A stretch of 64,000 nt of DNA, from contig JAEESZ010000001.1 in NCBI GenBank assembly GCA_016286535.1, positions 62,001-126,000 on the forward strand, read 5' to 3'. A program made the translations under genes and the position numbers. Under the pieces are notes generated by a model. That model searched no databases and was not told the DNA's origin. It worked only from the letters and a program-made list of their open reading frames with translations. The DNA is from Treponema sp. GTDB taxonomy: Bacteria > Spirochaetota > Spirochaetia > Treponematales > Treponemataceae. Shown in pieces: positions 51,154-52,503 of the stretch; the first letter of the stretch is position 1; every line of letters starts with the position of its first letter.

Positions 51154-51248
51154 ATTATATCTTATAGCCCTGCCATTTACTAGTTTTCCGAAAAAATTTA
51201 TAATAAGAAATACTTTTATTAGTGGGCAGGTCCCACATCGAGGATATT

Positions 51249-52271
51249 ATGGGAAAAAAGAATTTGGATTGGGGAAATCTTCCTTTTGGTTACATAAAGA
51301 CTTCTAAAAGTTTTGTTGCAACTTACAAAAATGGTGAATGGAGCGAAGGAAAATTAACTTCTAACCATTCCATTAAGATTAATGAATGCGCTGGAGTTTT
51401 ACAGTATGCACAAACCTGTTTTGAAGGCCTTAAAGCTTATACAACAGAACATGGTGAAATTGTAACTTTCCGTCCAGACCTTAATGCTGATCGTATGGCA
51501 GATTCTTGCCGCCGCCTTGAAATGCCGGTATACCCTAAAGAAAAGTTTATTGAAGCTGTATTAAAAACAGTTGAAGCTAACAAAGACTGGGTACCTCCTT
51601 ACGGTTCAGGAGCAACACTTTATATTCGCCCTTATATGTTCGGTTCAAATGCTGTTATTGGTGTAAAGCCTGCTGATGAATATCAGTTCAGAATCCTCGT
51701 TACACCTGTAGGACCATATTTCAAAGGTGGTGTAAAACCTATTACTGTTAGAATTTCTGATTTAGACAGAGCCGCTCCTCACGGAACCGGTGATATTAAA
51801 GCAGGCTTAAACTATGCTATGAGTTTACACAACATTGTTGATGCACACAAAGCTGGTTATGCAGAAAATATTTATCTTGATCCTGCAACACATACATATC
51901 TTGAAGAAACAGGTGGAGCAAACATCATTTTAATTACAAAAGATGGAAAACTTGTTACTCCTAAATCATCTTCTATTCTTCCTTCTATTACACGCCGTTC
52001 TTTACTGGTTGTTGCAAAAGATATTTTGAAAATGGAAGTTGAAGAAAGACAGATTAACGTAAATGAACTTTCTGATTTTGCTGAATGCGGTTTGTGCGGA
52101 ACTGCAGCCGTAATTTCTCCAATCGGAAAGATTGATGATCACGGAAAAGAAATTATCTTTAATGAAGGAAAAGCAGAAATGGGTCCTGTATTAAAGAAGA
52201 TTTACGACACTTTAACAGGAATCCAGATGGGTTCCCTCCCCGCCCCTGAGGGATGGATCTACACAATATAA
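51249..52271 (+). CDS. ilvE: Branched-chain amino acid aminotransferase
   Basis: YAQTCFEGLKAY, YIRPYMFGSN, ETGGANIILI, CGTAAVISPIG; GAGGA upstream of ATG 51249 favours it over GTG 51222. Confidence 0.95.
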   Translation: MGKKNLDWGNLPFGYIKTSKSFVATYKNGEWSEGKLTSNHSIKINECAGVLQYAQTCFEGLKAYTTEHGEIVTFRPDLNADRMADSCRRLEMPVYPKEKFIEAVLKTVEANKDWVPPYGSGATLYIRPYMFGSNAVIGVKPADEYQFRILVTPVGPYFKGGVKPITVRISDLDRAAPHGTGDIKAGLNYAMSLHNIVDAHKAGYAENIYLDPATHTYLEETGGANIILITKDGKLVTPKSSSILPSITRRSLLVVAKDILKMEVEERQINVNELSDFAECGLCGTAAVISPIGKIDDHGKEIIFNEGKAEMGPVLKKIYDTLTGIQMGSLPAPEGWIYTI

Positions 52272-52295
52272 TCCGCAGGATTATATGGTGTAAAA

Positions 52296-52351
52296 ACAGG
52301 TTTGTCATAGAGCTTGAATGAGCGTCAGCGAATGTCTCTTGACAAACCTGT
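52296..52351. repeat. Structured element copy A (tandem pair)
   Basis: Perfect 12-bp inverted arms ACAGGTTTGTCA/TGACAAACCTGT plus inner AGAG/CTCT. Confidence 0.85.
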
Positions 52352-52386
52352 ATCTTAAGGTAAACAACTAGTTTTATGCTGTAGAA

Positions 52387-52442
52387 ACGAGTTTGTCATA
52401 GGCTTTAAGCGAGCCACCGCGAGCGTGCCTTGACGAACTCGT
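52387..52442. repeat. Structured element copy B (tandem pair)
   Basis: 12-bp arms ACGAGTTTGTCA/TGACGAACTCGT (one G-U) plus inner AGGC/GCCT; 91 bp after copy A. Confidence 0.85.
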
Positions 52443-52452
52443 ATATTAAGGC

Positions 52453-52488
52453 AAAAAAAAACCGGACTTGCAAAGCCCGGCTTTTTTA
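52453..52488. terminator. Probable bidirectional terminator between ilvE and efp
   Basis: A-run, CCGG...CCGG stem, T-run between convergent genes. Confidence 0.8.
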
Positions 52489-52503
52489 TTTAACTAATAT
52501 TGA

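Follow-up and report, generated by a model that had tools for sequence, protein, structure and literature searches.

What are the structured elements that lie between ilvE and efp in a 64-kb stretch of Treponema DNA (the window)? A sequence-only reading had found two similar hairpins there at a 91-bp period and had offered three guesses: a REP/MITE-like palindromic element, an RNA in the ilvE 3' untranslated region (UTR), and a standalone noncoding RNA. The two hairpins are present at an offset of 91 bp, and they share the fold that had been described, namely, a 12-bp stem, an unpaired T, a 4-bp stem, an internal loop of 5 versus 2 nt, and an apical hairpin in which GA faces GA. Their fold energies are low (z = -5.2 for copy 1 and -5.6 for copy 2), and 0/200 shuffles folded as well. 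Counting the alignment by eye reproduced the approximately six compensatory changes and one G-U of the earlier reading: six double changes, at outer pairs 3 and 4 (A-T to G-C and G-C to A-T), at two inner-stem pairs, and at two apical pairs, plus one T-A to T.G. The claimed tail, TATnTTAAGGyAAA, follows both copies.

The earlier reading missed another hairpin, H1, which lies immediately 5' of the first copy and spans the ilvE stop codon. One repeat unit consists of H1, AA(A), and the hairpin first described, here called H2. The second H2 is preceded by the right arm of H1 alone, and the 91-bp period in the window reflects tandem repetition of the H1 right arm together with H2 and a spacer. The features are as follows; bit scores are those of R2, a covariance model built from 79 copies of the repeat.

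51222-52271, plus strand: ilvE-like ORF (branched-chain aminotransferase), so named by the sequence-only reading and by sequence; its last codons are within H1.
52258-52351, plus strand: full repeat copy, T-H1-AAA-H2, left flank ...GGA, matching the family plan AT-H1-AA-H2-GT(AT).
52260-52292, no strand assigned: hairpin H1, with 15-bp arms (52260-52274 and 52278-52292), loop GCA, and a stem score of 12; the arms covary in orthologous copies, and the left arm is the ilvE 3' end, including the stop codon at 52269-52271.
52296-52351, plus strand: hairpin H2, copy 1 (the first element originally described), from its fold and an R2 score of 66.3 bits.
About 52372-52384, plus strand: second H1 right arm, TTTTATGCTGTAG, without a left arm, by sequence reading; a like arrangement occurs at L084, L108, and L228.
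52387-52442, plus strand: hairpin H2, copy 2 (the second element originally described), from its fold and an R2 score of 78.8 bits.

Between the repeats and efp, AAAAAAAAACCGGACTTGCAAAGCCCGGCTTTTTT at window positions 52460-52490 is likely a bidirectional intrinsic terminator. Arrays of H1 right arm, H2, and spacer also occur elsewhere, with four copies at the ilvE gene of G119 (L084/L089), and comparable tandem arrays are present at other genes with periods of ~74 to 91 bp.

Both hairpins proved to belong to a large family. R1, a covariance model built from the two window copies, found no further copy in this genome and matched in 58/200 genomes of the genus. R2 gave 20 matches in this genome, of which four are readings of the opposite strand, leaving 16 copies; only the two known copies lie in the window, where the remaining matches were weak (E of 0.6 to 1). 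Nine copies in this genome are near-identical. Among congeners, R2 matched in 129/196 genomes; 27 candidates per genome were scored, and the copy counts from this search, like all genome copy counts from search matches, are lower bounds. In a phylum-wide R2 search, convincing matches were confined to several genera of one family, Treponemataceae; none outside it was convincing, three matches with E of 0.003 to 0.006 being taken as chance. A pattern scan of sequence collections for the H2 core gave only spirochetes among the matches listed, including Treponema bryantii, T. porcinum, Treponema sp. JC4, and Treponema sp. C6A8. The repeat is scattered in gut and rumen Treponema genomes, usually just 3' of a gene end or, bringing its own ribosome-binding site, exactly 5' of a start codon. 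Comparison with Rfam gave no match above the gathering score, and a phage or plasmid origin was rejected after no real match was found in annotated phage and plasmid collections. One contig of a viral collection, IMGVR_UViG_3300025146_000011 (161 kb; L364:1002-1031), carries one H2 core. The repeat was not found described in the open literature searched. We conclude that this small mobile repeat family of Treponemataceae is real and, within that literature, apparently undescribed.

Evidence of mobility comes from copies at unrelated places. A 76-bp subfamily (ATTGAGGGTTTATTACAAAACCCTCAAAACGGCGAAG...GACTCGACGTAT) occurs in exact or near-exact form at unrelated places in many species, several of which hold 100% identical copies. 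Among 27 equal-length 76-bp copies, mean identity is 97% within the element and 34% in the flanks. Spread by homologous exchange of flanking genes would give matching flanks, which is not what is seen. Filled and empty versions exist both of a site at an ACT-domain gene and of the ilvE site, and L048 and L059 form a filled/empty pair of one site. Elsewhere the element interrupts an HD-domain-like gene (G015) or lies within an additional copy of the 3' end of pgi (G104 and G115). The junctions of L059/L048, pgi, and the G015 gene are compatible with no target duplication or with one of a single A. A T-run lies just to the left of the 76-bp element in 34/51 distinct places and just to the right in 10/51, so that insertion is favored behind terminator-type T-runs. 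Near-identical copies, unrelated flanks, and empty sites, the general marks of a dispersed mobile repeat, are thus all present. At ilvE itself, copies are common to several species and have therefore been long inherited there, so that mobility at this gene is not directly seen.

At several loci, a partial second gene 3' end holds the element, with an intact 3' end upstream: pgi (L048 and L059), ilvC-like (L062, L063, L083, and L086), and gdhA-like (L066). The duplicates of pgi and the ilvC-like gene begin ~13 to 15 nt ahead of where the element is inserted; in pgi, roughly one residue in four differs between the two 3' ends. Tandem duplication and a foreign gene end are both candidate origins for these duplicated ends.

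The covariation that had drawn attention to the locus holds across the family. Over 122 non-overlapping copies, the consensus plan is that given above, a unit of ~76 to 105 bp with two adjacent hairpins and without coding capacity. Of 121 copies, 79% have a good H1 hairpin immediately adjoining H2, compared with 5% for shuffled and 13% for downstream sequence, and its stem begins directly after AT in 71/95 copies; H1 is variable in sequence and its pairing is kept. The H2 core, GTCA(N)AGGCTTTAAGCG..GCGTGCCTTGAC, is nearly invariant, and the outer stem covaries freely. H2 covaries strongly over 137 distinct sequences. Its covariation score was 0.346, versus 0.109 for shuffled and ≤0.09 for slid structures, and another covariation count gave a similar result; the alignments were fitted to the structure, and their counts thereby lean toward it. 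Departures from pairing in H1 are strand-neutral (G.T 13, A.C 10). Those in H2 (30 versus 18) show a weak RNA-strand bias, apart from one fixed T.G position. The sequence-only reading had taken the compensatory changes as selection on structure. Conservation of pairing stands; selection on an RNA fold is unsupported, since H1 has no G.U excess and H2 is only weakly biased apart from that position. From these sequence comparisons, we read the hairpins as mattering at the DNA level, probably kept by recognition, by templated correction, or by both, with RNA roles possible for single copies.

The position of the repeat relative to genes was scored on 107 copies with distinct left flanks. An opposite-strand start codon is abutted in 16/107 copies, the stop codon of the upstream gene lies in or beside H1 in 17/107, an opposite-strand stop lies near the H2 end in 10/107, and 64/107 have none of these contacts. 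A Shine-Dalgarno sequence is present in H1 of 16/16 start-type copies versus 6/91 others (Fisher P of about 2e-14, for copies that are not all independent events). A near-identical H1 (AATGGCTTTTTATCAGGAGGATAAAGCACATT|ATG) precedes at least three unrelated genes, which implies that the Shine-Dalgarno form moves as a unit; its placement at start codons may reflect targeting or only persistence. So strict a link between start codon and Shine-Dalgarno sequence implies a host role for some copies, and we counted it against the main reading given below. Judging by position and sequence, some copies appear to have been recruited into 5' or 3' UTRs. Two start-type copies lie directly before small ORFs that read as antitoxin-like (L026 and L074; Phd-like before a PIN-like ORF, and DUF1778-like).

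Could the repeat instead be a cis-acting structured RNA, an ilvE 3'-UTR or leader element selected for its RNA fold, the transcript folding into H1 and H2 and these governing mRNA stability, termination, or translation? The strong covariation, the Shine-Dalgarno sequence in H1 of every start-type copy, the ilvE arms that covary with synonymous codon changes, the slight G.U excess, and the T.G wobble that 37 copies have at one H2 position would all suit such a role. The repeat nevertheless occurs in both orientations to genes and mostly in places without gene contact by the criteria used, its presence at any single gene is patchy, G.U is not above A.C in H1, and Rfam holds nothing like it above the gathering score. 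We consider this explanation very unlikely. The same Rfam result, the unrelated neighborhoods, and the two orientations also leave the guess of a standalone noncoding RNA unsupported. A different process may contribute to the H1 pairing, namely templated (quasi-palindrome) correction in replication, with paired changes arising without selection and H1 a secondary consequence of hairpin insertion. At ilvE, the left arm of H1 consists of codons of the gene itself; across that clade, both arms change in step, at synonymous substitutions and at one Thr-to-Ser replacement, so that the right arm follows even an amino acid change. The strand-neutral departures fit as well. Against this, H1 is held at a fixed place beside H2 in most copies, which suggests that the element also needs H1. 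Templated correction as the source of the paired changes seems possible, at rather less than even odds, and could also hold together with the reading that we prefer, a mobile DNA element. The ilvE codons in H1 had also prompted the idea that H1 is remade from the target flank at each insertion; unrelated loci have one H1 in common, and the idea was therefore not accepted as generally valid. The ilvE 3' end of G150 (L382) carries a different palindrome built on the gene end, CGATATAACGACAATTTGC-TCT-GCAAATTGCGTTATATCG.

Alternatively, the repeat could be of REP/BIME type and depend for its movement on the RAYT-like Y1 (HUH) transposases found in the genus, where Y1 transposases are present in 63/196 genomes. 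The repeat does consist of small palindromes at intergenic places, and the long Y1 type and R1-detected copies co-occur in 14/22 genomes (kinship uncorrected). Yet the long Y1 genes (~245 to 260 aa) are mostly flanked by a different repeat, of the GGGGACAG type, which is a TIRYT signature (PMC3733652), only one weak R1 match lies near 40 long-Y1 loci, and this genome, with its near-identical copies, has no Y1_Tnp match (assembly 93% complete). The RAYT/TIRYT Y1 transposases were rejected as cognate on account of their flanking repeats, and we hold this account to be very improbable. RAYT-like Y1 genes of this length with GGGGACAG-type flanks (L161-L198), apparently TIRtrons, occur in about 20 genomes of the genus. 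IS200 was likewise rejected as the source: its ends in the genus are unlike H1 and H2, and at 12 IS200 loci R1 matched only where a separate copy was nearby. IS200-type elements (153-aa TnpA; L149-L160) often lie right behind terminator-type T-runs, like the 76-bp repeat. Two partial matches to an autonomous copy, in which a gene would separate H1 from H2, proved to be a contig edge (G172:C30) and an H1 variant (G168:C21); among the loci looked at, no autonomous copy or parent element with the same ends was found, and examination of the Y1 and IS200 loci of the genus yielded no cognate transposase.

The repeat is REP/MITE-like, yet for every named class tested some defining feature is missing. 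Integron attC sites have consensus ends RYYYAAC...GTTRRRY, and the H2 ends, AAAC...GTAT, led us to reject that identity. GTAG-tagged REPs and BIMEs with their RAYTs (PMC3733652) are also short, dispersed, mostly extragenic palindromes that form dimers, arrays, and DNA hairpins, whereas the Treponema repeat has two unequal hairpins in fixed order, no unpaired GTAG beside a hairpin (H1 follows AT, and H2 is bounded by AAAC/GTAT), and no RAYT gene found flanked by it. CGTC-tagged REPs and Rickettsia palindromic elements, reported in Spirochaetes, likewise are without a known dedicated transposase and can sit in genes; their stems of 8 to 9 bp carry loops of 4 to 5 nt, and the CGTC tag lies beyond the stem (PMC3733652). 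Alignment against that description ruled out this identity, CGTC occurring only inside the H2 stem. Other palindromic repeats lie at the same gene boundaries (L128, L101, L110, and L121), of the forms CGTCATTGCGAGC...GCAATCC (CGTC REP type) and GTCATTGTCGGGCTTGACCCGACAATCTC, and sequences resembling typical CGTC REPs stand apart from the repeat at these sites (L128). MITEs (such as ERIC, NEMIS, Correia, and BOX/RUP) share small size, non-autonomy, and a gene-adjacent position from which they can affect expression (PMC3733652). By contrast, the ends of the 76-bp unit (ATTGAGGG and GACGTAT, the latter reading ATACGTC in reverse complement), compared by eye, are not terminal inverted repeats; the junctions allow a target duplication of one A at most, and no parent insertion sequence was found among the loci looked at. 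IS200/IS605-derived palindrome elements resemble the repeat in having a hairpin near each end and inserting without target duplication, and the genus IS200 in often lying behind T-runs; the ends of the genus IS200 do not match H1/H2, and the repeat has no constant target tetranucleotide.

Of the three original guesses, the REP/MITE-like element is therefore the one supported, as a dispersed, mobile, covarying family; homologs and covariation are plentiful, and copies are not confined to decayed ends beside transposase genes. With a probability of roughly 0.85, the family is a non-autonomous REP/MITE-like element with DNA-level hairpins that is dispersed, has recently moved, and inserts cleanly, often behind T-runs. 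At ilvE, the copies are unexceptional members that have been duplicated in tandem, and the feature behind ilvE is very probably a tandem pair, one full and one truncated copy, of this mobile Treponemataceae repeat. The anatomy suggests a trans-acting enzyme that would recognize both hairpins in folded DNA, probably in single-stranded form, reading H2 through its near-invariant GTCAaGG...CCTTGAC core and H1 through its shape. Local tandem arrays of H1 right arm, H2, and spacer might then arise, and gene-adjacent copies would be tolerated or used by the host: 5' of start codons, the H1 loop could supply the ribosome-binding site, and 3' of stop codons, H1 could become a gene-end palindrome, as at ilvE. 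A bolder version is doubtful, namely, that two-hairpin mobile DNA is a new class moved by an unrecognized non-Y1 enzyme, with a Shine-Dalgarno subtype that inserts exactly at start codons and acts as a portable translation-initiation cassette replacing the 5' UTRs of unrelated genes.

The repeat adds an abundant family of small mobile elements to a clade for which the open papers searched held no similar one. Its mobilizing enzyme becomes a searchable question. The family may also offer a case of repeats supplying a ribosome-binding site to unrelated genes, and ilvE is a natural test bed for the coevolution of paired arms inside a coding sequence.
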